Made by a program: the position numbers and the translations under genes
Notes under the pieces: generated by a model
Database searches by the model: none
Seen by the model: only the letters and a program-made list of their open reading frames with translations
Told to the model about the DNA's origin: nothing
NCBI RefSeq assembly: GCF_900103485.1
Contig: NZ_FNHW01000001.1
Location: 1,337,418 to 1,401,417 of the forward strand
Source: Fictibacillus solisalsi
Lineage (GTDB): Bacteria > Bacillota > Bacilli > Bacillales > Fictibacillaceae
Length of the DNA stretch: 64,000 nt
Reading direction: 5' to 3'
In this document: in pieces, positions 18,224-36,972 of the stretch
How the letters are laid out: each line of letters opens with the position of its first letter
Numbering within the stretch: the stretch's first letter is position 1

Positions 18224-18239
18224 AACAGGAGGATGAATC

Positions 18240-19634: not shown

Positions 19635-19693
19635 TATGAGCTTACGAGTTTTCCAGCAAGAATCCAAAAAAAGTTTAAAGGGAGGGTCTGCAT

Positions 19694-21019: not shown

Positions 21020-21026
21020 TGATCAG

Positions 21027-21051
21027 GAAGCGGTTAGGCACTAACCGCTTC
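21027..21051 (+). promoter_or_regulatory. Intra-operon hairpin after the binding-protein gene
   Basis: An 11-bp perfect stem (GAAGCGGTTAG with CTAACCGCTTC, 3-nt loop), followed by a short pyrimidine stretch, lies 8 bp after the stop. It resembles the mRNA-stabilising or partial-terminator hairpins found between solute-binding and permease genes. Confidence 0.55.
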
Positions 21052-21072
21052 TTCTTTCGAAGGAGGATCGAG

Positions 21073-21996
21073 ATGGAAAAACCGGCTGGTAAGTCAGCGA
21101 AATTCAGGCTTATGGGTAAAAAACAGAGTAAAGATCTATTTTTTGCTGTAATACTGTTGTTACCCACCTTCTACATACTCTTTAAAACCTTTCTATTTCC
21201 CATCTATCAATCGCTGGTCTGGAGTATGTATAAGTATCACATGCTGGATGGTTCCGATGTGGTATTTGTGGGTTTTAGTAATTTTACAGCATTGTTCAAG
21301 AACCATGATTTCTGGACGGCAACATATTTTACCGGTTACTTTACTGTCCTCTCCACTGCAGCGGAATTGGTACTTGGCTTGTTTAGTGCCTTGCTGCTCA
21401 ATCAAATGTTCAGGGGAAGAGTATTTTTCCGGATGATTATCATCATTCCCTGGGCGATGCTGACCCTCGTAAACGGTTTGCTGTGGAAATGGATTTTTCA
21501 GCCGGGGAACGGGTCGTTTACGATTATTCTAAAGAAAATTCATGTACTTAGCGCAAGTGAAAACCCATTATGGCTGGCTGACGCCCATCATATTATTAAT
21601 TCCGTGGTGGTTGCCGATGTCTGGAAAATGACCCCGTTTATGACCTTATTACTGTTGGCCGGACTTCAGGCAATCCCTTCGACACTTTATGAAGCCGCAA
21701 TGATGGATGGCGCTGGATTCTGGAAAAAACTTCGGTATGTGACCATTCCACAGTTGTTTCCCATCCTGATGATTGCTGTTGTGCTTCGTACCATTGCGGC
21801 ATTTCGCGTTTATGACATCCTGACCGTTTTCACAGGAGACCCAACCACTTCTATTTCCTACCTGACCTTCAACAAGGCATTCCGTTACTTTTATCTGGGT
21901 GAAGCTTCTGCCATGGCATGGGTTTCAACGGCTATCATTCTCGTATTTATTGTCTTGTATATTCGCATGTTAAAGAAAAATTCCCATGAGGTATAA
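21073..21996 (+). CDS. Sugar ABC transporter permease, MalF-type
   Basis: The 307-residue integral membrane protein has about six helices. The coupling-loop EAA motif is visible as YEAAMMDGAGFWKKLRYVTIPQLFP, written here as one region near residue 215, which contacts the ATPase. I chose ATG 21073, preceded by AAGGAGG, rather than the in-frame ATG at 21019 that overlaps the previous stop and would read through the hairpin. It pairs with the MalG-type permease that follows. Confidence 0.9.
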   Translation: MEKPAGKSAKFRLMGKKQSKDLFFAVILLLPTFYILFKTFLFPIYQSLVWSMYKYHMLDGSDVVFVGFSNFTALFKNHDFWTATYFTGYFTVLSTAAELVLGLFSALLLNQMFRGRVFFRMIIIIPWAMLTLVNGLLWKWIFQPGNGSFTIILKKIHVLSASENPLWLADAHHIINSVVVADVWKMTPFMTLLLLAGLQAIPSTLYEAAMMDGAGFWKKLRYVTIPQLFPILMIAVVLRTIAAFRVYDILTVFTGDPTTSISYLTFNKAFRYFYLGEASAMAWVSTAIILVFIVLYIRMLKKNSHEV

Positions 21997-22010
21997 AAGG
22001 AGGGATACCC

Positions 22011-22973
22011 ATGTTTGAACCAACGATTGAACAGAGAACCGTCAAAAATGAGGTGGCAACGGTCAAAGGAAAATCCAGGTTGTTTAAGGTGAAAAGCACT
22101 GATCTGATTCCTCCCTTTTATTTGTGGTGCGGCTTAATCCTGCTTGCACTATTTACTTTGGCTCCTTTTGTCTATTTGTTTACGTCTTCCATCAGTAAGA
22201 CCGAAGAGCTGCTTAGCGGTCATTTGGTTCCTCACTCTCCCACACTGGAAAACTATTATCGCCTTTTTACTGGTAATGGGGCTGCCGAATTTATTGCAGC
22301 CATGAAAAACAGTATCATAGTTTCCCTTGGCACCACTGTGTTTACACTAGCTTTGGCCATTTTTGCATCGTATGCCTTTTCCAAAGTGGTATTTCCGTTT
22401 CGAAATTCTGCTTTATTTACAGTGCTGGCGATGCAGCTGTTGCCGTCCATCTCGATCATCGCTCCGCTCTATGTCATGATGAGAAATGGAATTACTGTTG
22501 CCATACCATTCACCAATGTTATTTTGCTTCATACGCCTCCTCTCCTGGATACGGTTTGGTCGTTAATTATTTCCTATACGACCTTTTCACTGCCGTTTGC
22601 CATCTGGATCATGACCGGCTACTTTCAAACCATCCCTAAAGCATTGGAGGAAGCTGCGATTATCGATGGGTGTTCACGTATGGGAAGCTTGTTCCGGATC
22701 ATCATTCCCCTTGCCATGCCCGGGATTGCGGCAACCGCTATTTTTACGCTGCTGTTGGCTTGGGATGAATTTATGTTTGCGAGTGCGTTCACTCAATCCT
22801 TTGCTTCCAAAACATTGCCGATCGCTATCCGTGAGTTTATTGGAAAGCACAACATTGATTGGGGACTTATGACGGCTGGGGGTTTTATCGCCTCGCTGCC
22901 GCCGGTTCTGGTATCCGTATTTCTTTATAAGTATATTGTCGGTGGCCTTGCAGGTGGAGGTGTGAAGGAATAA
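22011..22973 (+). CDS. Sugar ABC transporter permease, MalG-type
   Basis: The 320-residue membrane protein has a basic, soluble N-terminus of about 35 residues and six predicted helices. Its EAA loop is LEEAAIIDGCSRMGSLFR followed by IIIPLAMPG, and the C-terminal GLAGGGVKE matches the common G-x-x-x-G-x-V-K-G end of this family. AAGGAGGG precedes the ATG by five bases. Its TAA overlaps the ATG of the kinase gene. Confidence 0.92.
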   Translation: MFEPTIEQRTVKNEVATVKGKSRLFKVKSTDLIPPFYLWCGLILLALFTLAPFVYLFTSSISKTEELLSGHLVPHSPTLENYYRLFTGNGAAEFIAAMKNSIIVSLGTTVFTLALAIFASYAFSKVVFPFRNSALFTVLAMQLLPSISIIAPLYVMMRNGITVAIPFTNVILLHTPPLLDTVWSLIISYTTFSLPFAIWIMTGYFQTIPKALEEAAIIDGCSRMGSLFRIIIPLAMPGIAATAIFTLLLAWDEFMFASAFTQSFASKTLPIAIREFIGKHNIDWGLMTAGGFIASLPPVLVSVFLYKYIVGGLAGGGVKE

Positions 22974-23965
22974 TGACACACATTTTGATGGGGATTGATG
23001 GAGGCGGAAGCAAAACACATGCGGTTATAGCCGATCAGTCCGGTAACCTTCTTGGGAAGGGATTTTCAGGATGCTCCAACTACCAGGTGAACGGGATTGA
23101 GCAAGCGTTCGCCAATATTCAGGAAGCGGTTACAACCGCGATGCAGGAGGCCCGGCTTTCAAGCACTGATCTTTCTTTTGTGCAGTACGGGCTGGCAGGC
23201 GCTGATCGTGAAATAGATATCCGAACGTTGAAATCAAAGCTTGCAACCCTGCCTTTTAACAAATGGGACCTGGTATGTGACACCATGGAAGGCTTGCGGC
23301 TCGGGAGTCATTCCAATACCGGAGTCGTTTTAGTAGCAGGGAGCGGTACAAATGCAGCTGGAAGAAATGAGGAAGGGAATGTGGTCCAAACTGGAGGTTT
23401 TGGATATCTCTATGGTGATGGACAGATAGGGGGGAATGCACTCGCGGCAGAAGCATTCAGATCTGCGGTGCGTTCCTGGGAACTTCGGGACATTCCCTCA
23501 AGCTTAACCGATCGGATCCCCCGCTATCTCGGATTTCATACGATGGAAGAAATGTGGAATCAATTCTTGGATGACGGGGTAACGAGAGTCGACGGCAGAC
23601 TGGCGATTGTTCTACATCAGGCCGCAATGGACGGGGATCTGCTTTCGATCCGGATATTACAAAACGCCGGCATCGAGTTGGGCATAGCAGCAAACTCCGT
23701 GATCAAGAGACTCGGGAACTTGCCTGTCCCTATTCCCATCGTTCTAACAGGCAGTGTGCTGCAAAAGGGGAAGAATCCTGTAGTGTTGGACGCATTAAGA
23801 AAGACGATCGAGAATGAGGGGCACGAAATCGAATTGATTATTCCACATAAGGATCCGGTTTTTGGAGCGGTTTTACTGGCATTTGACCACCTTCATTTGC
23901 CGGTTAGCATTGAAATTTTAAACCGATTGGAAGAAGGGTGGATACGTCATGAAAAATGGGCTTAA
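22973..23965 (+). CDS. BadF/BadG-type sugar kinase (N-acetylglucosamine kinase-like)
   Basis: The 330-residue ASKHA-fold ATPase opens with GIDGGGSKTHAVIAD (phosphate 1 loop) and has VLVAGSGTNAAGRN (phosphate 2) and GDGQIGGNALA. Eukaryotic and bacterial N-acetylglucosamine kinases share this fold. It starts within the previous gene's stop (taATGa), so translation is coupled. Because the importer is an ABC system and not a phosphotransferase system, this kinase may supply the phosphosugar that a GH4 enzyme requires, or phosphorylate a released amino sugar. That role is inference. Confidence 0.83.
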   Translation: MTHILMGIDGGGSKTHAVIADQSGNLLGKGFSGCSNYQVNGIEQAFANIQEAVTTAMQEARLSSTDLSFVQYGLAGADREIDIRTLKSKLATLPFNKWDLVCDTMEGLRLGSHSNTGVVLVAGSGTNAAGRNEEGNVVQTGGFGYLYGDGQIGGNALAAEAFRSAVRSWELRDIPSSLTDRIPRYLGFHTMEEMWNQFLDDGVTRVDGRLAIVLHQAAMDGDLLSIRILQNAGIELGIAANSVIKRLGNLPVPIPIVLTGSVLQKGKNPVVLDALRKTIENEGHEIELIIPHKDPVFGAVLLAFDHLHLPVSIEILNRLEEGWIRHEKWA

Positions 23966-25277
23966 AGTAGCGGTGATCGGCGGTGGGTCTTCGTATACGC
24001 CTGAATTAATTGAAGGCTTTATCGAACGGCATGAAGAGTTTCCTGTACAGGAACTTTTTCTGGTGGATATCAATGAGGGAAAAGAAAAACTTGAAACTAT
24101 AGGAGAATTAGCACGGAGGATGATTCAAAAAGGCGGCGTTCCCATTCATCTTACGTTAACGTTTGATAGGGAGGAAGCAATCAAAGGAGCTGACTTTGTC
24201 ATCACACAGCTCCGCATAGGAATGCTCGAGGCAAGATCGAGGGATGAGAGAATTCCCCTCCGTTATCAATGCATTGGCCAGGAAACCACCGGGGCCGGAG
24301 GTTTTGCTAAAGCCCTGCGGACCATTCCGGTGATCCTTGATATCTGTCGGGATATTGCAAAATATGCTCCCGAAGCTTTTTTGATTAACTTTACAAACCC
24401 AGCAGGTGTTGTAACAGAAGCGGTAAATAAATATTCAACAGTAAAAGTGATCGGGCTTTGCAACCTGCCGATCAACACCAGAAAACAGCTTGCTGAATAC
24501 TTTAATGTGGAATCCGGCGAAATTGAGATAGAAATGGCAGGAATTAATCATTTAAATTGGACGACAAAAATTCGGGTAAAAAACAAAGATGTTACTGACA
24601 GTTTCCTGAATGGAGAAGCAGACCTGAAAGGCTTTAACATGAATAATATTCCTGATCTCGAATGGAATCGTGATTTTTTGCGGGCACTGGGAGCCCTTCC
24701 TTGCGGTTATCATCGCTATTATTATAAAGAAGATGAGGTTTTGAAACATCAATTAGAGCAATTGCAGGAGACTGGAACCAGAGCGGATGAGGTAAAAAAG
24801 GTGGAGGCCGCTTTGTTTAAACGCTATCAGGATCCCAATCTGTCCATCAAACCGCCGGAACTCGCTCAAAGAGGAGGCGCATTCTATTCCGAAGCGGCGG
24901 TTAATATCATGTCCTCCATCTATAACAATAAGAAAGATATTCAGACCGTAAATGTGCAGAATAATGGGATCCTATCCTGTCTTCCTGAGACCGCTTCTAT
25001 TGAAGTCAATTGCATGATTGACCGGCAGGGTGCTCATCCCATTCAACTTACTACCAAAATCGATGCAAGAATCCGCGGATTGCTGCAAATGGTAAAAGCT
25101 TACGAAGAATTAACCATTGAAGCTGCAGTTCACGGAGACTATTCCATGGGACTGCTCGCCTTGACTACGCATCCGCTGGTGAAGAGTGCTTCTGTTGCTG
25201 AAAAAATACTTCAAGACATTTTGGATGAAAATAAGACCTTTTTGCCGCAGTTTTTTTCAAAAAGCAAAACGGTATAA
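23949..25277 (+). CDS. GH4 6-phospho-beta-glucosidase-type enzyme, second copy
   Basis: The 442-residue enzyme is a more canonical GH4 6-phospho-beta-glucosidase (LicH/CelF-like) than the first copy. It has VAVIGGGSSYTPELIEG for NAD, QETTGAGGFAKALRTIPV, INFTNPAGVVTEAV, and predicted metal ligands Cys171 (GLCNLPIN) and His201 (GINHLNW). It overlaps the kinase gene by 17 bases, so kinase and glycosidase are translationally coupled. This supports a kinase-then-cleavage route. Specificity within 6-phospho-beta-glycosides is not certain. Confidence 0.88.
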   Translation: MKNGLKVAVIGGGSSYTPELIEGFIERHEEFPVQELFLVDINEGKEKLETIGELARRMIQKGGVPIHLTLTFDREEAIKGADFVITQLRIGMLEARSRDERIPLRYQCIGQETTGAGGFAKALRTIPVILDICRDIAKYAPEAFLINFTNPAGVVTEAVNKYSTVKVIGLCNLPINTRKQLAEYFNVESGEIEIEMAGINHLNWTTKIRVKNKDVTDSFLNGEADLKGFNMNNIPDLEWNRDFLRALGALPCGYHRYYYKEDEVLKHQLEQLQETGTRADEVKKVEAALFKRYQDPNLSIKPPELAQRGGAFYSEAAVNIMSSIYNNKKDIQTVNVQNNGILSCLPETASIEVNCMIDRQGAHPIQLTTKIDARIRGLLQMVKAYEELTIEAAVHGDYSMGLLALTTHPLVKSASVAEKILQDILDENKTFLPQFFSKSKTV

Positions 25278-25325: not shown

Positions 25326-25471
25326 GTGAAGAAGTAACCATGTATCGGTAAAAACCTAAATTTTAAAGTATTTTAAATTTTTCGATAAATTTATTGAAAA
25401 GTAAGATTTGGAATGGTTTAATAAAGCTATATATTTCAGTTAATATTTTTTTAAGCTATAGATGAAACGGC

Positions 25472-25488
25472 GTTTCTTATTACGAAAC
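25472..25488 (-). promoter_or_regulatory. Shared 17-bp palindromic operator, copy 1 (glycolate oxidase operon)
   Basis: On the minus strand the site reads GTTTCGTAATAAGAAAC. It differs at two positions from the identical copies at 29730 and 35227. It lies 19 bp before the TTG start of glcE. The likely binder is the IclR protein encoded at 34128. Confidence 0.6.
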
Positions 25489-25506
25489 AATTGGAGGTGG
25501 AGTGAA

Positions 25507-26838
25507 TTGCTCGAGACAGTATCTCTGTCGGATTTAACCTCGATTTTATCCCAAGAGCAAATCATGATTGAGGAAGAGAATAACCATCCCCATCCCTTGG
25601 GTAATGGTGGGTACATCACCGTTTTTCCTGAAACCGAAGAAGAAATTCAGGGCATTTTACAATATGCCGGTGACCATGGAAAAAAGATAACGATTCAGGG
25701 TGGAGGAACAAAAAGGGGATTTGGAGGACAAACTGAAAAAGCTGATATTTTGCTTTCGTTATCGAAATACAAAGGGATTGTTGAACATACGGTTGGCAAT
25801 ATGACAATCACGGTGAAAGCAGGAACTACTTTTCAGGAGTTGCAAACGTACCTGGCTGCGCACCGGCAGCGTGTTTCCCTTGATCCGGCTTGGCCTGAAT
25901 ATGCCACGATTGGCGGAATTATCAACTCGAATGAAAGCGGTCCCAAACGGCTTGGTTATGGTTCCTCACGCGATGTAGTCATTGGATTGCGTGTCGTTTA
26001 CCCTGAGGGCTCGATCATACGGTTGGGGGGAAAGGTCGTAAAAAATGTGGCCGGTTATGATATGAACAAACTGTTTATTGGATCCATGGGTACGCTGGCC
26101 GTTATGTCTGAAGTGATTCTCAAACTGCGTCCGCTTGCGAAGTATGAAAGCTTAATGCTCTTGTCCTTCCCGGATGGAAATTTAGAGGCGGTTCGGCTGT
26201 TTGCCACGACTCTTTTGGAATCCATGATGGAACCTGTCACTCTCGAGCTGTTAACACCAGCTCTCTCGGAAAAACTGACCGGTCAACGGGTTTATACGTT
26301 GGCGATGAGTTTCGAGGATGTAGAGAGCGCGGTGCATTATCAGGAGGAATTCGTCAAAAGCATTTCTCCTGCACAAGTTCAATTGGACATCTTGCCCCAA
26401 GAAAAAGCACAAGCATTTTGGGATCACTTTTATATTCTCAAACCGAATGGAGCCTTACTTTCCACCGACACTAAAACAGCAGCAACTGTCAAAATCGGCG
26501 TGACCAACCTTGACGTGCTTCATGTTTTAAAGGAAAGCACCCTCTTGCAGGACAGCCACAATCTGGTGGTTCAGGGGCACGGCGGACTAGGGCATGGCTT
26601 GTGTCAAGTGACATTGAAAGGAGCAAGCGATGATATCCTGAGTGCTATTGCTTATTTGCGGCAATTTGTAGAACAGTTTAACGGTTATCTTATCGTGACA
26701 CATTTACCTTACGTTCTCCGGCAGCAGGTCAGTGTGTGGGGCAATCCACCTTCCTATTTTTATCTGCTGGAAGGAATTAAAGCCAAAGTAGACCCTAAGA
26801 GAATTCTCAATGACAAACGTTTTGTGGGAGGGATCTAA
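25507..26838 (+). CDS. glcE: Glycolate oxidase subunit GlcE-like (FAD-binding)
   Basis: The 443-residue protein has an FAD-binding type 4 (PCMH) domain: ITIQGGGTKRGFGGQ, then SLDPAWPEYATIGGIINSNESGPKRLGYGSSRD, summarised as one FAD-contact region around 105-145, and GGKVVKNVAGYDM. It is shorter than GlcD and matches GlcE of the three-subunit membrane-associated glycolate oxidase. I chose the TTG at 25507 with GGAGGTGG six bases upstream; the in-frame ATG at 25462 lies in the operator. It is first in glcE-glcF-glcD, an operon that turns glycolate into glyoxylate and passes electrons to quinones. Confidence 0.85.
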   Translation: MLETVSLSDLTSILSQEQIMIEEENNHPHPLGNGGYITVFPETEEEIQGILQYAGDHGKKITIQGGGTKRGFGGQTEKADILLSLSKYKGIVEHTVGNMTITVKAGTTFQELQTYLAAHRQRVSLDPAWPEYATIGGIINSNESGPKRLGYGSSRDVVIGLRVVYPEGSIIRLGGKVVKNVAGYDMNKLFIGSMGTLAVMSEVILKLRPLAKYESLMLLSFPDGNLEAVRLFATTLLESMMEPVTLELLTPALSEKLTGQRVYTLAMSFEDVESAVHYQEEFVKSISPAQVQLDILPQEKAQAFWDHFYILKPNGALLSTDTKTAATVKIGVTNLDVLHVLKESTLLQDSHNLVVQGHGGLGHGLCQVTLKGASDDILSAIAYLRQFVEQFNGYLIVTHLPYVLRQQVSVWGNPPSYFYLLEGIKAKVDPKRILNDKRFVGGI

Positions 26839-26840
26839 GC

Positions 26841-28199
26841 GTGGGCACAAGGGAAAGCGATGTGAAGGAACACCAGGCATGTACTACCATAAGTCTGAGC
26901 AATTATCATTGGAGTGATCCCCCTGACGAAAATAAATGGGCGGATTGTGTGCATTGCGGGATGTGTCTGGAATCATGTCCCACTTATGAACTCACCGGCC
27001 AGGAGCAACATTCTCCCCGAGGGCGGGTTCATCTCATCAAATCTGTCGCCGAAGGAAAAATTGAGGTCAATGAGCAGTTTATGGATCCTGTTTTTGCCTG
27101 CCTGGACTGCCGTGCATGTACAACCGCCTGTCCGGCGGATGTGGATGTCGGGGGACTGATCGAAGAGGCACGGGGACAAATTCGCCAAGCTATACCATTA
27201 ACAGGGTACAGAAAAACTGTCAGCAATTTCTTCCTGCATCGTCTGTTTCCCCATCAGAACCGTTTGAACACCGTTGGCGGGTTATTAAAATTTTATCAAA
27301 AGAGCGGGATGCAAAAAGTCGTCCGGAAAACTGGACTGTTAAAGATAATGCCTGACCATCTGGCAGAGATGGAAGGAATCATGCCGGAACTGACACAACC
27401 CGTACGAAAAAAATACAAGAATCAAAATGTGATTAAGGCAAAAGGCAAAACCAAGCATGAGGTTGCCTTGTTAACGGGGTGTGTTATGGATGTGATGTTC
27501 AGTGACATTAATGAGGCTACAATTAACGTTCTTACCCGAAACGGTAATGATGTGGTCATTCCTCAAAACCAAACATGCTGTGGCGCTCTGCATGTTCACG
27601 CGGGTGACCGGGAAATGGGAAGAAAGCTTGCCAAACAGAATATCGAAGCGTTTAACGATGCAAAAAAAATCATTGTTAACGCTGCGGGATGTGGCTGCAT
27701 GATGAAGGAATATGCAGAATTGTTCCGTGAAGAGCCCGAATGGCACGAAAAAGCGCTGTCGTTTTCCGCCAAGGTGGAAGACGTATCAAAATATCTTCAT
27801 GACACGGGGTATGAACAGCCACAGGCTGAAATAAAAACCCGTATCACCTATCATGATGCCTGCCATTTAGCACATGGGCAAGGAGTGCGTCAGGAGCCTC
27901 GAAACATTTTGCTTGATATCCCTGGCGTTGAAATGGTCCATATGCCAAACGCAGACCGCTGCTGCGGAAGTGCTGGAATCTATAATATTACCAATCCGGA
28001 AATGGCGGGAGCTGTGCTGGAAAGCAAGATGGAGAATGTACCGGATGACGTGGAGATGATTTCGATGGGAAACCCCGGCTGCATGCTTCAAATGGCGATG
28101 GGCGTCCAAAAATATGGACGTAATCAAAAAATTGTTCACACCGTTCAACTGCTCGACTGGGCCTACAAGAAAGAAGATGGCTTAAGGGGGCAGGAATAA
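26841..28199 (+). CDS. glcF: Glycolate oxidase iron-sulfur subunit
   Basis: The 452-residue electron-transfer subunit has two 4Fe-4S ferredoxin motifs, CVHCGMCLESCPTY and CLDCRACTTACPADVD. Two Cys-rich CCG domains follow in the C-terminal half (TCCGALHVHAG, NAAGCGCMMKEY; DACHLAHGQG, CCGSAGIYN). These are the marks of GlcF. The GTG start at 26841 follows GGGAGGGATC, 3 bp after the glcE stop, and the stop overlaps the glcD start. The operon order is unusual compared with the familiar D-E-F order. Confidence 0.9.
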   Translation: MGTRESDVKEHQACTTISLSNYHWSDPPDENKWADCVHCGMCLESCPTYELTGQEQHSPRGRVHLIKSVAEGKIEVNEQFMDPVFACLDCRACTTACPADVDVGGLIEEARGQIRQAIPLTGYRKTVSNFFLHRLFPHQNRLNTVGGLLKFYQKSGMQKVVRKTGLLKIMPDHLAEMEGIMPELTQPVRKKYKNQNVIKAKGKTKHEVALLTGCVMDVMFSDINEATINVLTRNGNDVVIPQNQTCCGALHVHAGDREMGRKLAKQNIEAFNDAKKIIVNAAGCGCMMKEYAELFREEPEWHEKALSFSAKVEDVSKYLHDTGYEQPQAEIKTRITYHDACHLAHGQGVRQEPRNILLDIPGVEMVHMPNADRCCGSAGIYNITNPEMAGAVLESKMENVPDDVEMISMGNPGCMLQMAMGVQKYGRNQKIVHTVQLLDWAYKKEDGLRGQE

Positions 28200-29650
28200 T
28201 GGGACTAAAGGGACTGAAAACAAAAGATAAACACATTAAGAATCTGGCAAAAATCGTGGGCGACCGTTCAATTCTACACCATAAAGAGGATTTGCTGGCA
28301 TATGACTGCGACGGATTTACAATCCACAAGTATTTGCCAAAAGCAGTTGTTTTTCCTAAAGACACACTTGAAGTTTCCCGTCTTGTCAGCTATTGCTCAG
28401 ACAACCGGCTGCCTTTTCTAGCTCGCGGCGCAGGCACAGGTTTGAGCGGCGGAGCCATCCCGGTCAACGGAGAAGTGGTCATCAGTCTGGTCAAAATGAA
28501 AAAGCTGCTGAGTGTAGATTACGAGAATAAAAGAGCGGTGGTCGAACCCGGTTTTGTCAACCTGAAGCTAACCAACTCTATCTCAGATAAAGGGTATTAC
28601 TATGCACCTGATCCATCCAGCCAGTATTGCTGTACGATTGGCGGGAATGTGGCAGAAAATGCGGGAGGCGCTCATTGTCTAAAATATGGGGTGACCACAA
28701 ATCATATTTTGGGACTGGAAGTGGTTTTGCCAAACGGCGAAATCATTGAAATCGGCAATAACGGGATTCCTGATTCACCTGGGTATGATCTCCTCGGATT
28801 GATTACAGGCTCGGAAGGAACGCTCGGGATCGTGACAAAAATCACCGTCAGGATTCTGAAAAACCCCGAAGCCAAACAGACCGTGCTTGCCTATTTTGAT
28901 GACGTTTCAGACGGTAGTCATGCGGTATCGGACATCATCTCTGCCGGTATTGTTCCTGCTGCGCTTGAAATGATGGATAAAACAGCCATTGAAGGGGTGG
29001 AGTCCGCAGCCTTTCCTGTGGGACACCCGAGAGATATTAAGGCGCTGCTGCTCATTGAAGTAGATGGCATTGCTGCAGGGATTGATGAGCAAATCAGCCA
29101 GATTCTCGACGTCTGTAAAAACCGGAATGTCCGTGAAGTAAAAGTCGCCCAAGATGAAGCAGAACGGGCAAGATGGTGGGCGAACCGCAAGACAGGATTC
29201 GGGGCTATGGGTGCCATCTCCCCCGACTATTTGGTACAAGACGGGGTCATCCCTCGCAGCCGGCTGCCGGAAGTGTTAAACAGAATTAACCAGATCAGTG
29301 AAGAATCCGGTCTCCGCATCGCCAATATTTTTCATGCAGGGGACGGAAATCTGCATCCGCTCGTTCTTTTTGATGCAAGAATTCCGGGGCAAACGGAATT
29401 GGCCCTTTCAGCCGGCAGTGCGTGTTTGCAAGCTTGTGCAGATGTGGGTGGAACCATTACAGGAGAGCACGGCGTGGGAATTGAGAAGAGAGAAGAAATG
29501 CGTTTCGTGTTTACTGATGAAGAAATACAGGCCCAGACTGATATTCGAGAGGTGTTTAATCCAGAGAACTTGTTAAACGCCGGCAAGTTATTTCCGAGTC
29601 CTGGACGGTGTGCTGAAGTCAAAAAAGAGAGAAAAGAGGCAGCACTTTAA
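28199..29650 (+). CDS. glcD: Glycolate oxidase FAD subunit
   Basis: The 483-residue FAD-linked oxidase is homologous to GlcD, the catalytic subunit. The FAD domain holds PFLARGAGTGLSGGAIP, PDPSSQYCCTIGGNVAENAGG and PGYDLLGLITGSEGTLGIVTKI. The C-terminal oxidase domain holds NIFHAGDGNLHP and TGEHGVGIEKREEM. D-lactate dehydrogenases share the fold, but a separate GlcE and GlcF plus adjacent malate synthase G make glycolate the most likely substrate. Its ATG overlaps the glcF stop (taATG). Confidence 0.9.
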   Translation: MGLKGLKTKDKHIKNLAKIVGDRSILHHKEDLLAYDCDGFTIHKYLPKAVVFPKDTLEVSRLVSYCSDNRLPFLARGAGTGLSGGAIPVNGEVVISLVKMKKLLSVDYENKRAVVEPGFVNLKLTNSISDKGYYYAPDPSSQYCCTIGGNVAENAGGAHCLKYGVTTNHILGLEVVLPNGEIIEIGNNGIPDSPGYDLLGLITGSEGTLGIVTKITVRILKNPEAKQTVLAYFDDVSDGSHAVSDIISAGIVPAALEMMDKTAIEGVESAAFPVGHPRDIKALLLIEVDGIAAGIDEQISQILDVCKNRNVREVKVAQDEAERARWWANRKTGFGAMGAISPDYLVQDGVIPRSRLPEVLNRINQISEESGLRIANIFHAGDGNLHPLVLFDARIPGQTELALSAGSACLQACADVGGTITGEHGVGIEKREEMRFVFTDEEIQAQTDIREVFNPENLLNAGKLFPSPGRCAEVKKERKEAAL

Positions 29651-29675
29651 AATTGTGTAAATTTTTCAAAAACAA

Positions 29676-29705
29676 TTGAAAGCGGTTTATATTTTGTGCT
29701 ATTAT
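29676..29705 (+). promoter_or_regulatory. Malate synthase promoter with overlapping cre-like site
   Basis: TTGAAA at 29676-29681, an extended -10 TGC-TATTAT (29697-29705) and 18-bp spacing form a promoter. TGAAAGCGGTTTAT at 29677-29690 matches the left part of a cre site but lacks the final CA. CcpA control is plausible but weaker than at 35032. Confidence 0.5.
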
Positions 29706-29729
29706 TTTTTCAACATCATACAAAACAGC

Positions 29730-29746
29730 GTTTTGTAATAACAAAC
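29730..29746 (+). promoter_or_regulatory. Shared 17-bp palindromic operator, copy 2 (malate synthase)
   Basis: GTTTTGTAATAACAAAC is identical to the site at 35227-35243. It starts 24 bp after the -10 element, so a bound protein would block elongation or initial transcription. Confidence 0.65.
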
Positions 29747-29772
29747 AGAAATAGTAAAAGGAGGAACAAGCG

Positions 29773-31950
29773 ATGGAAAATTATGTTCAAAAAGGCGATT
29801 TGCAAGTTGCTCAAGAACTTTATGAGTTCATTCAATCTGAGGCGTTACCTGGAACTGGGTTGAATCCTGACACGTTCTGGTCGGAATTTGAAGGACTGAT
29901 TCTGGACCTCACACCAAAAAACAGGGAATTATTAGCGCGCCGCGATGAAATTCAGGACCAGATTAATGGATGGCATCTGGACCATAAGGACCGGTTCGAT
30001 TTTGAAGCGTATAAGGCCTTTTTACAGGAAATTGGTTATCTTGAACCCGAAGCAGAGGAGTTTGAAATTACAACTCAAGGAGTGGATGATGAGATTGCGA
30101 TTCAAGCGGGACCGCAACTGGTGGTTCCAGTGAACAATGCCCGTTATGCAATCAACGCGGCCAATGCCCGATGGGGAAGCCTGTATGATGCGCTTTATGG
30201 AACGGATGCCATCAGTGAAGAAAACGGGGCGGAGCGAGGCGCCAGTTATAATCAGATACGAGGTGAAAAGGTCATTGCCTTTGGGAGAGAGTTTCTTAAC
30301 CAAACCATTCCTTTAAAGGATGCTTCTCACGAAGATGCGGTTCAATATCGTGTGGTCGACGGGGAGTTATCCGTTACGCTACATACCGGGAATACCACAG
30401 GACTAATTGATTCATCGAAGTTTGCAGGTGTTCAGGGGACTTTAGAAAACCCAAGCTCCCTTTTGTTCAAGAACAACGATCTTCATTTTGAAATCCAGAT
30501 TGACCGCAATCATCCTATAGGTAAAACCGATGACGCCGGCGTAAAAGACATCCTGATGGAAGCAGCTATTACCACGATTATGGATTGTGAAGATTCAGTT
30601 ACCGCAGTTGATGCAGAGGATAAAGTGATTGTTTACCGAAACTGGCTCGGTCTTATGAAGGGAGATTTATCGGCTACCTTCCAAAAAGGAAGCAAATCCA
30701 TGACACGTACCCTTAACGCTGACCGCCAATATACAACTCCTGCTGGAGAAGAATTCTCCTTGTCAGGGCGATCATTAATGTTTGTCCGCAATGTCGGCCA
30801 CTTGATGACGAATAATGCCATTTTGGTTAACGGAGAGGAAATTCAGGAAGGGATTCTTGATGGAGTGATTACGAGCCTCTTGGCCAAACATTCTCTTCTC
30901 GGCAATGGCACCTATCAAAACTCTTCCAAAGGATCTGTCTACATTGTTAAGCCGAAAATGCATGGATCAGAGGAAGTCCGTTTTGCCAATGAGCTTCTCG
31001 ATCGTGTGGAAAACATGCTGGGGCTCGAACGCAATACCATTAAAATCGGTGTAATGGATGAGGAACGCCGAACGTCCCTTAACCTAAAGGCATGCATCCG
31101 TGAAGTCAAAGACCGGATCGCTTTTATTAATACAGGATTTCTTGACCGAACCGGGGATGAAATCCATACATCAATGGAAGCCGGTCCAATGATCCGTAAA
31201 AGTGACATGAAATCATCTGCCTGGCTGCAAGGATATGAAAAGTCCAACGTCTATACAGGTCTGGAGACAGGCTTCCAGGGTAAGGCCCAGATAGGTAAAG
31301 GAATGTGGGCGATGCCTGACCTGATGGCAAATATGTTGAAGCAGAAGATTGGCCACCCAAAGGCAGGAGCAAATACAGCTTGGGTTCCGTCGCCTACGGC
31401 CGCTACTCTGCATGCCCTTCATTACCATCAAGTGGATGTTTCCAAGGTACAGGATGAATTAAAAAAAGTATCCGAAAATTTACGGGATGATATTTTGGAA
31501 ATTCCGGTCGTGAACCATGCAGATTGGAGCGCTGAAGATATACAACAGGAATTAGACAACAATGCCCAAGGAATATTAGGCTATGTTGTCCGCTGGGTGG
31601 AACAGGGCGTGGGCTGTTCCAAAGTGCCCGATTACTACAATGTGGGGCTGATGGAAGACAGAGCGACTCTCAGAATCTCGAGCCAGCATATGGCGAACTG
31701 GCTGCACCACGGTATATGCACTAAAGAACAAGTAAGGGCGACGTTAGAGCGGATGGCCAAAGTGGTAGATGAACAAAACGCCGGAGATCCATCCTATCTC
31801 AGAATGTCCGATAACTATGACCATTCAGTTGCGTTTCAGGCAGCCTGCGATCTGGTCTTTAAAGGGTTTGAACAGCCAAATGGTTACACAGAACCTATCC
31901 TGCACAGCCGCCGTATTGAAGCAAAAGCCAAATATGCCATCAAGCAGTAG
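29773..31950 (+). CDS. glcB: Malate synthase G
   Basis: It condenses glyoxylate with acetyl-CoA to give malate. The 725-residue length and sequence fit isoform G rather than the shorter isoform [29 protein letters not shown], described here as the region holding the Mg-binding Glu and Asp, then [53 protein letters not shown], and [27 protein letters not shown] precedes the ATG. It works directly downstream of glycolate oxidase and has its own regulated promoter. Confidence 0.96.
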
Positions 31951-31996
31951 CAGATTACCTGCTCCCATCGGCTTTTTTAGAACGTAAAACTGGTAA

Positions 31997-32034
31997 AACA
32001 GTACTCTCACGGGTACGATCGTGAGAGTACTGTT
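31997..32034 (+). terminator. Long perfect hairpin between malate synthase and malic enzyme genes
   Basis: AACAGTACTCTCAC and GTGAGAGTACTGTT form a 14-bp perfect stem with a 10-nt loop. No T-run follows, so it may act as an RNA-stability element or a partial terminator rather than a classical one. Confidence 0.5.
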
Positions 32035-32059
32035 CAACATTTCGTGAGGAGTTGAGAAT

Positions 32060-33265
32060 ATGCAAAACCTTAAGGAAAAATCGCTTGAACTTCACAAACA
32101 GTCCAAAGGAAAACTCAGTGTGGAGGTGAAGGTTTCCATTGAAAATGCAGATGACCTGAGTTTGGCTTATTCTCCGGGAGTTGCAGAGCCGTGTAAAGCC
32201 ATTTACCAGGATCCGCAAAAAATTTACGATTATACGATCAAAGGAAATGTGGTTGCGGTCGTGTCGGATGGTTCAGCCGTATTGGGATTAGGGAACATCG
32301 GCGCACGTGCATCGATGCCGGTTATGGAAGGAAAAGCGGCGTTATTTAAGGCTTTTGCAGGAATAGATGCCTTTCCGATCTGTTTAAATACACAGGATGC
32401 AAACGAGATTATTCAAATTGTGAAATCATTAGAGCCGACATTCGGCGGGATTAATTTGGAGGATATTTCAGCTCCTAACTGTTTCATTATTGAAGAACGG
32501 CTGAAAAAAGAAATGGATATCCCTGTTTTTCATGATGACCAGCATGGAACAGCCATTGTTACGGCAGCCGGCTTAATAAATGCGCTGAAGGTCGTCAACA
32601 AACGGATTGAGGATACAAAAATCGTTGTAAATGGAGCCGGGGCAGCAGGAATTGCTGTAACGAAGCTGCTAATCAATATGGGTGTGAAAGATATTATTCT
32701 TTGTGATTCCAAAGGGGCGATTTATGAAGGGCGAGCCTATGGGATGAATACCATGAAAGATTGCATTTCTGTACTTACCAACAAAGAGAACGCAGAAGGA
32801 AGATTACAAGACGTCATTAAAGACGCCGACGTCTTTATCGGGGTTTCAGTGGCCGAGGCCGTAACGCAGGATATGGTAGAATCTATGGGCAAAGATCCAA
32901 TTATTTTTGCCATGGCTAATCCTATTCCCGAAATTATGCCTGTGCTTGCCAAGGGAGCTGGTGCGGCGGTTGTTGGAACCGGACGTTCCGATCTCCCCAA
33001 CCAGGTGAATAATGTACTGGCGTTTCCTGGTATTTTTAAAGGTGCCTTACAGGTCCTTGCTTCTGAAATTAATGAAGAAATGAAAATTGCAGCTGTTTAT
33101 GCCATTGCCAACTTAATTACAACCGAAGAACTAAGCTATGACTATGTCGTTCCGCATGCCTTTGATAAGAGAGTCGTAGAAGCGGTTGCCAAAGCTGTAG
33201 CGGATGCTGCCATTTCTACAGGGGTAGCCCGGATCATTAATATGAAACAACCTTCCAATTACTGA
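32060..33265 (+). CDS. NAD(P)-dependent malic enzyme
   Basis: The 401-residue enzyme decarboxylates malate to pyruvate. It has LAYSPGVAEPCKAI, a substrate region FHDDQHGTAIVTAAGL with the metal-binding Asp residues, and a Rossmann motif VVNGAGAAGIAVTKLL. The length equals that of the short bacterial malic enzymes such as B. subtilis YtsJ, with no phosphotransacetylase extension. GTGAGGAGTTGAGAAT precedes the ATG. It follows malate synthase, so it would drain the malate made from glyoxylate. Cofactor preference is not certain from sequence. Confidence 0.92.
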   Translation: MQNLKEKSLELHKQSKGKLSVEVKVSIENADDLSLAYSPGVAEPCKAIYQDPQKIYDYTIKGNVVAVVSDGSAVLGLGNIGARASMPVMEGKAALFKAFAGIDAFPICLNTQDANEIIQIVKSLEPTFGGINLEDISAPNCFIIEERLKKEMDIPVFHDDQHGTAIVTAAGLINALKVVNKRIEDTKIVVNGAGAAGIAVTKLLINMGVKDIILCDSKGAIYEGRAYGMNTMKDCISVLTNKENAEGRLQDVIKDADVFIGVSVAEAVTQDMVESMGKDPIIFAMANPIPEIMPVLAKGAGAAVVGTGRSDLPNQVNNVLAFPGIFKGALQVLASEINEEMKIAAVYAIANLITTEELSYDYVVPHAFDKRVVEAVAKAVADAAISTGVARIINMKQPSNY

Positions 33266-33278
33266 GAGGAGTACCAGA

Positions 33279-34058
33279 ATGCAATATACTAGATTTAAGG
33301 TTCAATCTTCTGTTTTAACAGGGGTTTTAACGGAAGACCATACCATCAAAGAAATCAAAGGTGATCTGTTTGGTGAATGGAAATATACAGGACAAACGTT
33401 TTCCGAAAAGGATGTTAAGTTTCTTGCTCCACTATCGCCAAACCAAGTCATTGGGATCGGCGCCAACTATGTGTCCAAGACAGACGAACTGCCAAGTGAG
33501 CTTCCGGAAATTCCGGTTTTCTTCTTTAAGCCAACCTCTTCGGTCATCGGACCTGAAGAAGATATCATCATACCGGACAATATTGAGCAGGTTAAGTTTG
33601 AATCAGAGCTTGCGATTGTCATTGGGAAAGAAGCAAAGAATGTCCCTGAAGAAGAGGTGCTTGAATATGTTTTCGGGTATACGGTGGGCAATGATGTGAC
33701 CGCACCTCAATATTTCCATGAAGCCGGCCATTGGACCATTGGCAAATCATTTGATACCTTTACTCCACTAGGACCGGTCATTGAAACAGAACTTGATCCT
33801 TTCAATGTTACTGTAAAAGCAAAGCTAAACGATGTAGAAAAACAAAACAGTCACACGAATTTAATGATCATTCCCATTCGTAAAATGATTTCCTATCTTA
33901 CCGGAGTCATGACGCTGAAACCGGGAGATGTGATCTTAACGGGCAGCCCTGTCGGCGCAGAATTTGTGGGAGCAGGCGATGTGATTGAATGCGAGATCAA
34001 GGGAATTGGCAAGCTTCGCAACACGTTCGTTGCCGCCAGAGAACGCATTAAAGCTTAA
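33279..34058 (+). CDS. Fumarylacetoacetate hydrolase-family protein
   Basis: The 259-residue protein has the FAH C-terminal domain with metal ligands in VKFESELAIVIGK (Glu-x-Glu), the segment NDVTAPQYFHEAGHWTIGKSFDTFTPLGPVI, named as a region, and TGVMTLKPGDVILTGSPVG. Family members include acylpyruvases, hydratases and oxaloacetate tautomerase/decarboxylases. It lies 13 bp after the malic enzyme gene and probably in the same transcript, so action on oxaloacetate or a related keto acid is the most economical idea (inference). No aromatic catabolic genes surround it. Confidence 0.82.
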   Translation: MQYTRFKVQSSVLTGVLTEDHTIKEIKGDLFGEWKYTGQTFSEKDVKFLAPLSPNQVIGIGANYVSKTDELPSELPEIPVFFFKPTSSVIGPEEDIIIPDNIEQVKFESELAIVIGKEAKNVPEEEVLEYVFGYTVGNDVTAPQYFHEAGHWTIGKSFDTFTPLGPVIETELDPFNVTVKAKLNDVEKQNSHTNLMIIPIRKMISYLTGVMTLKPGDVILTGSPVGAEFVGAGDVIECEIKGIGKLRNTFVAARERIKA

Positions 34059-34127
34059 GTAGACCATCCGTGGCCCGGCGGCAGATATGCTATAATTTTC
34101 TTATACTTACAGATGAGGTGAAGGGTT

Positions 34128-34925
34128 TTGGAAAGAGAGAATATGGTGAAGTCCGTCAGCCGGGCACTGGATATCATTACTCTGGTTAGTTTGAAAAAAG
34201 GCGGAATGGGTGTTACTGAAATCGCAAAACAAATTGATATAAATAAAAGCTCTGTTTATCGAATCCTGTCCACTTTGGTGCTGTATGGCTATATTGAACA
34301 AGATCAAGAAACCGGGCGTTATAAGCTCGGATATAAATTTTTGGAAGTTAGTTCGAAGCTGCTTGAATCCATCGACCTTAGAGCGGAAGCAAAACCGTTT
34401 CTGCAAGAGCTGGAAGATGAAACAAATGAAGTCGTCCATCTTGTTGTCTTTGATCAAGGTGAGGTGGTCTATATTGAAAAATTGGACGGCAATGAAACTC
34501 TCCGTATGCATTCCAAGGTGGGAAAACGTGCCCCCATGCATTGTACTTCAGTAGGGAAAGCCATTCTTGCTTCACTGCCGGCCAGTGAGGTCGTGGAAAT
34601 TCTCCAGCGTAAAGGAATGCCTCGTCATACAGACAAAACCATAACAGACAAAGATCTGTTTCTTGAAGAATTAAATCAAGTAAGACAGAGGGGCTATGCG
34701 CTTGATTTGGAAGAAAATGAAACGGGCATCACGTGTATTGCAGTCCCCATCTACGATCATTTGGGTATGGTCGTTGGTGCCGTCAGCATCTCTGGGCCGA
34801 CCCTCCGTATGACCAATGAACGGCTGGAACAGCTTAAGCCCCGCATGCAGAAAATCAGCAAGCAGCTCTCTGCTCGGCTTGGGTATACGAACGAAGATTT
34901 TGTCCAGATGGAAAAGGGAAGTTAG
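34128..34925 (+). CDS. IclR-family transcriptional regulator of the glycolate/glyoxylate island
   Basis: The 265-residue protein has an IclR winged helix-turn-helix (SVSRALDIITLV, GVTEIAKQIDINKSSVYRILSTLVLYGYIEQ) and the effector domain from about 80 (KVGKRAPMHCTSVGKAILASLP, GYALDLEENETGITCIAVPI). IclR proteins often sense glyoxylate, pyruvate or similar acids. I use the TTG at 34128 after GAGGTGAAGGGTT; the ATG at 34143 is an alternative. It sits inside the cluster carrying three near-identical palindromes, so it is the best candidate for their binder. No such palindrome lies before its own gene. Confidence 0.88.
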   Translation: MERENMVKSVSRALDIITLVSLKKGGMGVTEIAKQIDINKSSVYRILSTLVLYGYIEQDQETGRYKLGYKFLEVSSKLLESIDLRAEAKPFLQELEDETNEVVHLVVFDQGEVVYIEKLDGNETLRMHSKVGKRAPMHCTSVGKAILASLPASEVVEILQRKGMPRHTDKTITDKDLFLEELNQVRQRGYALDLEENETGITCIAVPIYDHLGMVVGAVSISGPTLRMTNERLEQLKPRMQKISKQLSARLGYTNEDFVQMEKGS

Positions 34926-34952
34926 TATTTTGATTGAGAATAAGGAAAAAAA

Positions 34953-34981
34953 GAAGGACGGGTTTTGATCAATCCGTCCTG
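34953..34981 (+). terminator. Probable hairpin terminator after iclR
   Basis: AGGACGG and CCGTCCT form the core of a stem around a GATC loop. The following T-rich stretch is weak (TGTTATG). Confidence 0.4.
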
Positions 34982-35017
34982 TTATGTGCCTAATTTTTTA
35001 AATATACAGAAAATAAA

Positions 35018-35047
35018 TTGACGTGATTTAATGAAAGCGGTTACAAT
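35018..35047 (+). promoter_or_regulatory. Permease promoter overlapped by a perfect cre site
   Basis: TTGACG (35018-35023) and TACAAT (35042-35047) are 18 bp apart. TGAAAGCGGTTACA at 35032-35045 matches the CcpA site consensus exactly and covers the spacer and part of the -10. Strong glucose repression is expected. Confidence 0.7.
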
Positions 35048-35177
35048 AAATTTTGAAACTCATCTATTACGGCAGGAAAGGAGTATAAATAAACTACATT
35101 AAAACACTACTCTATTTTTATCCATCTCTCTATCATCGATGACCCCACCATTAGCCATTCCTTCAGTTTATGAATCA

Positions 35178-35207
35178 ACTAAGTCGTTCCTTAGTGTTTT
35201 TTTATTT
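35178..35207 (+). terminator. Weak terminator or attenuator in the permease leader
   Basis: ACTAAG and CTTAGT form a 6-bp stem with a 6-nt loop, followed by GTTTTTTTATTT. It lies between the promoter at 35018 and the permease gene, about 130 nt into the leader. The rest of the gene-free stretch 34982-35262 shows nothing else I can name. Confidence 0.45.
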
Positions 35208-35226
35208 AAGAATTTCGAGAAACGTT

Positions 35227-35243
35227 GTTTTGTAATAACAAAC
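35227..35243 (+). promoter_or_regulatory. Shared 17-bp palindromic operator, copy 3 (permease)
   Basis: GTTTTGTAATAACAAAC is identical to the copy at 29730. It is 19 bp before the permease ATG, the same kind of position as at glcE and malate synthase. Confidence 0.65.
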
Positions 35244-35262: not shown

Positions 35263-36972
35263 ATGTCATGGAAACAAATCTATGATCCAATTGGAGATAG
35301 TATTGGCCTCTCTGCTCTCGTTGCTCTTATCCCTATTTTGTATTTATTGTGGGCGCTGGCAATAAAACGCATGAAAGGATACATAGCAGGATTGACTACA
35401 TTGATTGTGGCTCTGCTTGTAGCTGTGCTGGTCTATGGCATGCCCGCAGGAATGGCCGCCATGTCCATTTTGCAGGGTGCTGTCTATGGACTGCTTCCCA
35501 TTGGCTGGATTATCGTTGCATCGGTCTTTTTGTATAAGCTGTCGGTAAAAACGGGGCAGTTTGATATTATTCGAGACTCCATTGTTTCCATAACAGAGGA
35601 CAGACGTTTGCAGGCACTATTAATCGCCTTTTCCTTTGGTGCCTTCCTGGAAGGGGCTGCGGGGTTTGGTGCACCGGTTGCAATTTCTGCCGCTCTGCTT
35701 GTAGGATTGGGTTTTAACCCTCTCTATGCAGCAGGTCTTTGTTTGCTTGCTAATACCGCTCCTGTAGCCTTTGGAGCCATTGGATCGCCAGTTATCGCGA
35801 TTGAAGGACCAACGGGAATGTCGGCTATTGAGGTTTCGAAAGTGGTCGGCCGTCAGCTGCCTTTTTTATCGCTTTTCGTGCCGTTTTACCTCATCGTTAT
35901 GATGGCAGGCTTCAAAAAGGCATTTGAAGTAATTCCTGCTATTCTCGTATCGGGGATCTCGTTTGCGGTCACACAGTTCCTTGTTTCCAATTATCTAGGA
36001 CCGGAGCTTCCGGATATCATCTCAGCATTGGTATCCATTATCGCCTTAACCTTGTTCCTGAAAGTTTGGCAGCCCAAGACATCATTCCGTTTTAAGTCTG
36101 AAATGGGGCAGGCAGAAATGGCGGCAGGTAACGCGGAATCCATTCACGTGATTAAATCGGATGGTAAAAAAACCTACACCTTCCCGCAAATTTTAAAAGC
36201 CTGGTCACCGTTCATTGTATTAACAATCATCATTTCTGTTTGGGGCATACCGACCATAAAAAAGGCACTAATTGGGCAGTATGAAGGAACAAATACTCTG
36301 CTTCAGGGGTTGAATTCTCTTGGGCATTATCTCAGTTTTCATCCAGCCGTCCCCGGATTGAACAATTTAATCATCGACGGAAACGGCCAGCCCATTACGG
36401 CCATGTTTAAGTTAGAGCTATTGGCGGCAGCAGGAACGGCCATTTTAATCTCGGCCATTATTTCGAAGTTCATTCTAAAAATCGATTGGAAAAGCTGGTT
36501 TTCAACTTTTATTGAAACGCTGAACGAATTAAAGTTCGCCTTGGTAACCATTGCATCGGTTGTAGGGTTTGCCTATGTGGCCAATGCCTCGGGTATGAGT
36601 ATTACGCTCGGCATGACACTAGCCGCTACAGGTTCTTTGTTCCCGTTTGTTTCTCCGATTCTTGGATGGTTAGGGGTATTTCTGACCGGTTCGGATACGT
36701 CCGCTAATTTATTATTTTCAAGTCTTCAAAAGATTACGGCAAACCAAGTGGGGATGGACCCCATCTTAGCGATTGCGGCAAACAGCAGCGGTGGGGTAAC
36801 CGGGAAAATGATTTCACCTCAATCCATAGCGGTGGCGTGTGCGGCCGTGGGACTGGGAGGAAAAGAATCCGATCTGCTTCGCTTCACTATAAAACATAGC
36901 ATCATCCTGCTTTTCATCATTTGCTGCATCACGTATTTGCAATCAACGGTATTTTCATGGATGCTGCCGTAG
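35263..36972 (+). CDS. LctP/LldP-family permease, probably for glycolate (GlcA-like)
   Basis: The 569-residue membrane protein has 12 or more hydrophobic helices. Family motifs include FGAFLEGAAGFGAPVAISAALLVGLGF, named as the conserved pore region near 125-150, CLLANTAPVAFGAIGSPV, and GVFLTGSDTSANLLFSSLQ with AANSSGGVTGKMISPQSIAVA near the end. The family carries lactate and glycolate with protons. Because it shares an operator with glycolate oxidase and malate synthase, glycolate is the likely substrate. GAGGAGG is eight bases before the ATG at 35263; a TTG directly before it is less likely. Confidence 0.88.
   Translation: MSWKQIYDPIGDSIGLSALVALIPILYLLWALAIKRMKGYIAGLTTLIVALLVAVLVYGMPAGMAAMSILQGAVYGLLPIGWIIVASVFLYKLSVKTGQFDIIRDSIVSITEDRRLQALLIAFSFGAFLEGAAGFGAPVAISAALLVGLGFNPLYAAGLCLLANTAPVAFGAIGSPVIAIEGPTGMSAIEVSKVVGRQLPFLSLFVPFYLIVMMAGFKKAFEVIPAILVSGISFAVTQFLVSNYLGPELPDIISALVSIIALTLFLKVWQPKTSFRFKSEMGQAEMAAGNAESIHVIKSDGKKTYTFPQILKAWSPFIVLTIIISVWGIPTIKKALIGQYEGTNTLLQGLNSLGHYLSFHPAVPGLNNLIIDGNGQPITAMFKLELLAAAGTAILISAIISKFILKIDWKSWFSTFIETLNELKFALVTIASVVGFAYVANASGMSITLGMTLAATGSLFPFVSPILGWLGVFLTGSDTSANLLFSSLQKITANQVGMDPILAIAANSSGGVTGKMISPQSIAVACAAVGLGGKESDLLRFTIKHSIILLFIICCITYLQSTVFSWMLP

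Follow-up and report, generated by a model that had tools for sequence, protein, structure and literature searches.

Glycolate use in Fictibacillus solisalsi appears to be controlled by a compact regulatory circuit, which we describe here from a 64,000-nucleotide stretch of its genome (contig NZ_FNHW01000001.1, positions 1,337,418 to 1,401,417), hereafter the window. An island of genes in the window carries three copies of a 25-bp element, the box, and runs in the order box, glcE, glcF, glcD, box, glcB (malate synthase G), malic enzyme, a fumarylacetoacetate (FAA)-hydrolase-family gene, iclR, box and LctP-family permease. The three boxes are very probably operators of the IclR-family protein encoded in the island, through which repression of glcEFD, glcB and the permease gene would be relieved by glyoxylate. 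What the computation shows is the presence of the boxes, how they are built, how well they are conserved and that they occur together with the regulator. Because the box tracks its target genes and iclR, and is not widespread, a circuit of one regulator and three operons is by far the best reading.

Sequence, position and conservation of the box

A sequence-only reading of the window had claimed a 17-bp palindrome, GTTTTGTAATAACAAAC, identical at 29730-29746 and 35227-35243, with a third copy at 25472-25488. Both identical copies were found with 0 mismatches, and the third lies on the minus strand with 2 mismatches. The repeat is thus real, but the palindrome is imperfect at glcB and lctP, and the conserved unit measures 25 bp, not 17. 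Aligned in gene orientation, the sites consist of three half-sites, RAAAC-n3-GTTTY-n7-SAAAC, laid out as two overlapping palindromes with the middle half-site in common, and the 17-mer corresponds to the right two-thirds of this unit. All three boxes are oriented like their downstream gene and stand just 5' of the Shine-Dalgarno sequence of glcE, glcB and the permease gene. Equivalents were counted in 80 named loci, which are stretches around the closer iclR orthologues of Bacillaceae (1.59 Mb in total):

25464..25488, + strand: box 1, GAAACggcGTTTCttattacGAAAC, in the probable leader of glcEFD; equivalents at 61 of 70 testable glcE genes
29722..29746, + strand: box 2, AAAACagcGTTTTgtaataaCAAAC, in the probable leader of glcB; equivalents at 70 of 77 testable glcB genes
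35219..35243, + strand: box 3, GAAACgttGTTTTgtaataaCAAAC, in the probable leader of the LctP-family permease gene; equivalents at 15 permease genes after iclR

Scanning the window with the 17-mer gave 5 matches at up to 3 mismatches (0.56 expected), a number reached by none of 100 shuffles. Genome-wide, GTTTYGTAATAASAAAC has 3 exact matches, which are the three island sites, and 2 more elsewhere at 2 mismatches, while its backwards control has 4 matches at up to 2 mismatches. The 25-bp search pattern RAAACNNNGTTTBKTAWTAMSAAAC matches, in the 4.80-Mb genome, the island boxes at 0 mismatches, nothing at 1 or 2, and 6 sites at 3, and the same pattern read backwards has 9 matches at up to 3. A chance repeat is ruled out by the window shuffles, by these genome-wide matches compared with the backwards control, and by the counts in the named loci given below. 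The genome search that had been proposed for the motif was thereby carried out, and together with a scan of 348 genomes it rules out a motif spread widely at unrelated genes.

All three sites had been placed before gene starts, which holds for boxes 2 and 3; box 1 overlaps the longest listed glcE open reading frame (start 25462), yet a later start is likelier. At 49 of the 61 relatives' sites a glcE start codon, usually TTG, follows 14-21 nt 3' of the box behind a good Shine-Dalgarno sequence; 11 others have no such start at the cut-off used, and 1 has a later start. Since the equivalent position in the window is 25507, all three boxes most likely lie in untranslated leaders.

Conservation around iclR is extensive. 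An iclR orthologue at ≥59% identity was found in 9 of 60 relatives searched, and boxes lie near it in 9 of 9. In 79 of the 80 named loci glc-type or malic-enzyme genes stand upstream of iclR on the same strand, with iclR alone in the remaining one. At up to 2 mismatches these loci hold 152 boxes, compared with 0 for the backwards pattern; 148 precede a glcE, glcB or LctP-type permease gene on the same strand and 4 are elsewhere, so that the motif does track these genes in related genomes, as had been suggested for checking. An assigned box is present in 75 of the loci. Among the 15 box-bearing genes after iclR, 5 were matched as lctP homologues and the other 10 begin alike; the 5 of these 10 that were tested are all PF02652 permeases (373-380 bits). 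With sites chosen by the 17-mer alone, the outer GAAAC is 95-100% conserved at 4 of 5 positions, about equal to the inner half-sites. The two gene sets differ in the centre of the box, which has opposite orientations at glcE (61 of 63) and glcB (67 of 71); the extra half-site is promoter-proximal at both.

Co-occurrence with the regulator and genes of the island

A sample of 348 genomes from across the order contains 61 with an iclR orthologue (called at E ≤ 1e-75). Allowing up to 1 mismatch, the box is present in 54 of the 61, compared with 5 of the 287 genomes without the orthologue (G044, G087, G111, G154 and G185; Fisher p ~2e-49, shared ancestry ignored). The backwards control is found in 4 of 348. 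Up to 2 mismatches, a match is present in all 61 but also in 77 of the 287, a level that does not discriminate. Malate synthase G is encoded in 141 genomes, including all 61 with iclR. Another 80 genomes have glcB but lack the iclR orthologue; none of them shows a box at glcB (≤1 mismatch), and the 3 among them that contain a box have it on another contig than glcB. This rules out a motif that tracks glcB instead of the regulator: the box tracks IclR, not glcB as such. Over the 348 genomes the site co-occurs with the orthologues of one regulator, as looked for in a three-box IclR operator. The idea of a three-site regulon under one regulator, put forward from the sequence, is supported by this co-occurrence, by the uniqueness of the box in its genome and by its target genes.

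The same counts bear on the suggestion that the binder of the box is a different regulator, with its gene outside the island, and that iclR is a mere passenger of the operon. In its favour, the genome holds three other IclR-family matches at E ≤ 1e-20, and the island protein is a predicted binder. The co-occurrence of box and orthologue, the 80 glcB-bearing genomes that lack both iclR and a box at glcB, and a box grammar that is that of IclR-family sites make a passenger role very improbable.

The presence of an IclR-family gene inside the island is borne out by both family domains: the helix-turn-helix domain PF09339 scores 55.6 bits against a cut-off of 22, and the C-terminal ligand domain PF01614 scores 193.5 bits against one of 24. 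Among the NCBIfam equivalog models, the protein scores best with that of KdgR (NF011671, 242 bits), below the cut-off of 275; it also falls below the cut-offs for BhcR (NF045644, 222.6 vs 350 bits), E. coli IclR (NF008601, 166.2 vs 380) and E. coli AllR (NF007548, 141.7 vs 406). The genes of the island are as follows:

25507..26838, + strand: glcE-like subunit binding flavin adenine dinucleotide (FAD); TTG start inferred, profile score below the curated cut-off
26841..28199, + strand: glcF-like iron-sulfur subunit; below curated cut-offs
28199..29650, + strand: glcD-like FAD subunit; 504.5 bits, cut-off 567.9
29773..31950, + strand: glcB, malate synthase G; 1225.8 bits vs cut-off 989.15
32060..33265, + strand: malic enzyme; best match 418.8 bits, below its cut-off
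33279..34058, + strand: FAA-hydrolase-family protein; PF01557
34128..34925, + strand: IclR-family regulator, proposed binder of the three boxes; PF01614, PF09339, co-occurrence with the box
35263..36972, + strand: LctP-family permease (glycolate/lactate type); PF02652, above the cut-off of TIGR00795; start in the open reading frame list is TTG 35260

Adjoining the island, 17312-25277 contains sugar ABC-transporter genes, a gene for a BadF/BadG-family ATPase and, as judged by eye, a kinase-like gene together with two for GH4-like enzymes; no link to the boxes was seen there.

Candidate promoters, probable mode of control and inducer

Candidate promoters were located in front of all three boxes, and a site resembling the catabolite-responsive element (cre) of CcpA overlaps one of them:

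25394..25422, + strand: candidate glcE promoter, TTGAAA-17-TTTAAT with TG before the -10; found by eye, conserved in two relatives, weak and not among the 9-of-12 matches
29676..29705, + strand: candidate glcB promoter, TTGAAA-18-TATTAT, extended -10; 10 of 12, -10 ends 16 bp before the box
35018..35047, + strand: candidate permease promoter, TTGACG-18-TACAAT; 10 of 12, conserved in two relatives, 171 bp before the box
35032..35045, + strand: cre-like site TGAAAGCGGTTACA over the permease -10 region; 0 mismatches to the cre consensus

Such cre matches are not rare in the window, where the consensus gives 9 at up to 1 mismatch and 10 of 100 shuffles reach 9. The promoters of glcB and the permease gene are the two best promoter-like sites of the region, and the gap from the -10 to the box is 41 bp at glcE, 16 bp at glcB and 171 bp at the permease gene. 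For the relatives we took the best promoter within 150 bp upstream of the box only. At glcB, 64 of 72 sites have a gap of 15-19 bp between the end of its -10 and the box, and 13 of 15 permease sites have one of ≥65 bp. Because the boxes lie downstream of the predicted promoters, this placement favours repression, relieved by an inducer, over activation.

The opposite sign has precedent. With the same regulator and sites, IclR could be an activator or have a dual role, in that it would bind the leader and assist polymerase in the presence of glyoxylate. The IclR family includes activators and dual regulators (PMC8222616), and one such activator of IclR type is BhcR of Paracoccus, which binds DNA less tightly in vitro once glyoxylate is added (PMC11323563). 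We regard this as unlikely on account of the position of the boxes relative to the best predicted promoters. Classical activator sites lie upstream of the -35.

The repression model, in which direct binding by IclR, the repressor sign and the inducer are what we infer from the sequences, would work as follows. The IclR protein (34128-34925), as a dimer or a pair of dimers, would occupy the three boxes as predicted operators, and so block transcription downstream of the promoters of glcEFD, glcB and the permease gene. The block would act on initiation at glcB and on early elongation at glcEFD and the permease gene, and that at glcB would cover mae, fah and iclR too if they are read through. Glycolate that enters and is oxidised would yield glyoxylate, and this or a close 2-oxo acid would loosen IclR from the DNA. 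Release would then switch on three steps at once: uptake, oxidation to glyoxylate, and condensation to malate.

Divergent orthologues bear on the choice of inducer. At ~54-62% identity, iclR orthologues keep boxes at malate synthase G (G342, G107, G239, G085, G035), at glcE (G198, G035) and at a permease gene (G165). One genome (G008) has boxes at malate synthase A, a firm assignment (838.6 bits, cut-off 594.5), and before an operon of a split transketolase, a DUF1537-like protein and a thiamine pyrophosphate (TPP) enzyme; for the TPP enzyme, the acetolactate synthase model gives 536.8 bits (cut-off 538.35) and the glyoxylate carboligase model 530.8 (cut-off 791), neither cut-off being reached. 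A possible expanded regulon is seen around the divergent orthologue of G361 (L225, 5010-14373), where a relaxed pattern finds six boxes. They lie around genes for an MFS transporter, a class II aldolase, a GntR-type regulator and an NCS1-type permease, with an allantoinase gene (625 bits, cut-off 357.85) behind that of the permease, and around the transketolase operon already described for G008. Glyoxylate is common to glycolate oxidation, malate synthase and allantoin breakdown. Being common to most of the gene sets marked by the box, it is preferred as the signal, and the inducer is probably glyoxylate or a close 2-oxo acid. In the ligand pocket, hand-mapped from an alignment with E. coli IclR, D212, S239 and S241 are kept; for the glyoxylate-pocket set 160G 161A 212D 239S 241S (E. 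coli numbering) the window protein has S, V, D, S and S. Since only part of the listed residues is kept, glyoxylate stays the probable rather than the established ligand.

Two candidate enzymes near the boxes of locus L043 were set aside: one proposed as glyoxylate carboligase scores about equally as acetolactate synthase, below both cut-offs, and the next, proposed as hydroxypyruvate isomerase, had no NCBIfam match. Separately, L046 (9629-9653, minus strand) contains a box, GGAACactGTTCCgcaataaGGAAC. It lies downstream of a paralogue of IclR with 43% identity, and the gene that comes after it is TctC-like as judged by eye. In this single case all three half-sites are changed alike (GGAAC/GTTCC/GGAAC), and the paralogue has His where the orthologues have Tyr or Phe. 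Among the orthologues, with the F. enclensis protein (L036) as row W of the comparison, recognition-helix residues gave no clear pattern of covariation with half-site variants.

Several observations weigh against repression by IclR from these boxes. The box is absent at up to 1 mismatch from 7 of the 61 iclR genomes; six of these have a weaker box at glcB (G085, G194, G239, G251 and G305 by the relaxed pattern, G219 with 2 mismatches), and the iclR-positive G303 has none in 19.5 kb around iclR, with weak matches elsewhere in that genome. No assigned box is found in 5 of the 80 named loci (L166, L174, L179, L186 and L190), and it is missing at 9 of 70 testable glcE and 7 of 77 testable glcB genes there. 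The glcE promoters are weaker and scattered, the gap being most often 30-39 bp (22 of 61), and all promoters are consensus matches only, of which 24 were found against 16.3 in shuffles. Pocket positions 160, 161, 143, 154 and 220 differ from E. coli IclR in the hand-mapped alignment. BhcR, a glyoxylate-responsive IclR protein, is an activator in vivo (PMC11323563).

The position of the boxes in the leaders also raises the question of a role in RNA, with a leader hairpin near the Shine-Dalgarno sequence governing translation or termination. The boxes are probably transcribed and lie close to the Shine-Dalgarno sequence in the window, 148 of 152 have the same orientation to the gene, two competing short stems are possible, and a T-tract precedes most glcE and glcB boxes. 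Set against this, the right-hand pair is mismatched at glcB and lctP (GUUUU/CAAAC) while the DNA half-site is kept, the box centre is inverted between glcE and glcB, and co-occurrence with a DNA-binding protein is left unexplained. We therefore give an RNA element hardly any credence, and keep to the boxes as DNA operators. A reading of GAAAC-n-GTTTC as a sigma-factor element was also considered and not adopted.

The T-tracts of the window are:

25446..25452, + strand: T-tract 12-18 bp before box 1; ≥5 T at -22 to -8 in 50 of 61 glcE sites
29705..29710, + strand: T-tract 12-17 bp before box 2; likewise in 58 of 71 distinct glcB sites

Equal windows further upstream contain such T-runs in a mean of 5-7% (largest 10% and 21%), and a run of ≥5 T at 8-22 bp before the box is less common elsewhere, with 3 of 15 permease sites and 10 of 21 divergent ones. 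The distance of the tract to the glcE or glcB box is nearly fixed (equivalents in L115-L194), though that of the glcE promoter varies. Conceivably the tract is part of the device: a bound repressor would stall polymerase and the U-rich hybrid would free the transcript, making a hairpin-less, protein-dependent terminator that glyoxylate turns off, which may be likened to the roadblock terminators of eukaryotic polymerase I. This is improbable, in that the glcB tract lies between the -10 and the likely start site and would hardly be transcribed, and most permease boxes have no T-tract and a degenerate second box instead.

That second box, also of three half-sites, was found at up to 7 mismatches at 9 of 15 permeases (L116, L120, L133, L145, L147, L150, L151, L155 and L175), always 30-31 bp upstream, or about three helical turns, compared with 0 of 15 in shuffled sequences. 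At glcE it occurs in 16 of 61 sites (5 of 61 shuffled) with offsets scattered over 26-56 bp, mostly 26-30, and glcB shows no excess (4 of 72, compared with 5 of 72 shuffled). The long permease leader of the window also contains, at 35178-35205, a hairpin-like CTAAG/CTTAG repeat with a run of seven T behind it, which does not appear among the listed terminators; the stem is not kept in F. enclensis, and the region is missing in F. fluitans.

Relation to known IclR systems

The sequence-only reading knew of no such described site, a claim that has to be withdrawn as to the kind of site. Three-box sites have been predicted for IclR proteins of 32 orthologous groups (Suvorova and Gelfand 2021, PMC8222616), likewise with three half-sites in alternating direction (GTTYC/GRAAC), where one pair fits GKTYCRYW3-4RYGRAMC and the other TGRAACAN1-2TGTTYCA; the island boxes were compared with these by eye. 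Because box grammar and regulator match these predicted motifs, the island represents a new case within a described kind of site. The main text of that study differs in naming neither a glycolate regulon ("glycolate" occurs 0 times) nor the island regulator, and the published three-box motifs that we compared have no conserved T-tract. No title or abstract in the literature covered names the regulator or its site; the supplement of PMC8222616 and RegPrecise, which lie outside this coverage, may list the group.

Among individual systems, the operators of PcaU, PobR and HmgR also combine a palindrome with an external direct half-site, and PcaU binding requires the third box, but they serve aromatic catabolism and have another half-site sequence (as cited in PMC8222616). 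The consensus core listed for KdgR of gamma-proteobacteria, GAAACGNCGTTTC, equals the left palindrome GAAAC-n3-GTTTC, whereas KdgR governs pectin and galacturonate use and is listed without a third box. E. coli IclR and AllR share the family, the glyoxylate ligand and control of glyoxylate-using genes, but are listed with single A/T-rich palindromes. BhcR of Paracoccus denitrificans resembles the island protein as an IclR-type, glyoxylate-responsive regulator connected with glycolate use; there a GntR-type protein, GlcR, runs glycolate oxidase and BhcR the beta-hydroxyaspartate cycle (PMC11323563), whereas the oxidase, malate synthase and permease here appear to share one IclR protein as their regulator.

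The analysis proposes a concrete glycolate regulon, with regulator, predicted operator and targets named, for a branch of Bacillaceae that comprises Fictibacillus, Cytobacillus, Neobacillus, Peribacillus, Anoxybacillus, Geobacillus and others. Its ~150 natural three-box sites, with ~20 more from distant orthologues, would provide material for testing the proposed ability of IclR proteins to form dimers in two different ways on the same operator.

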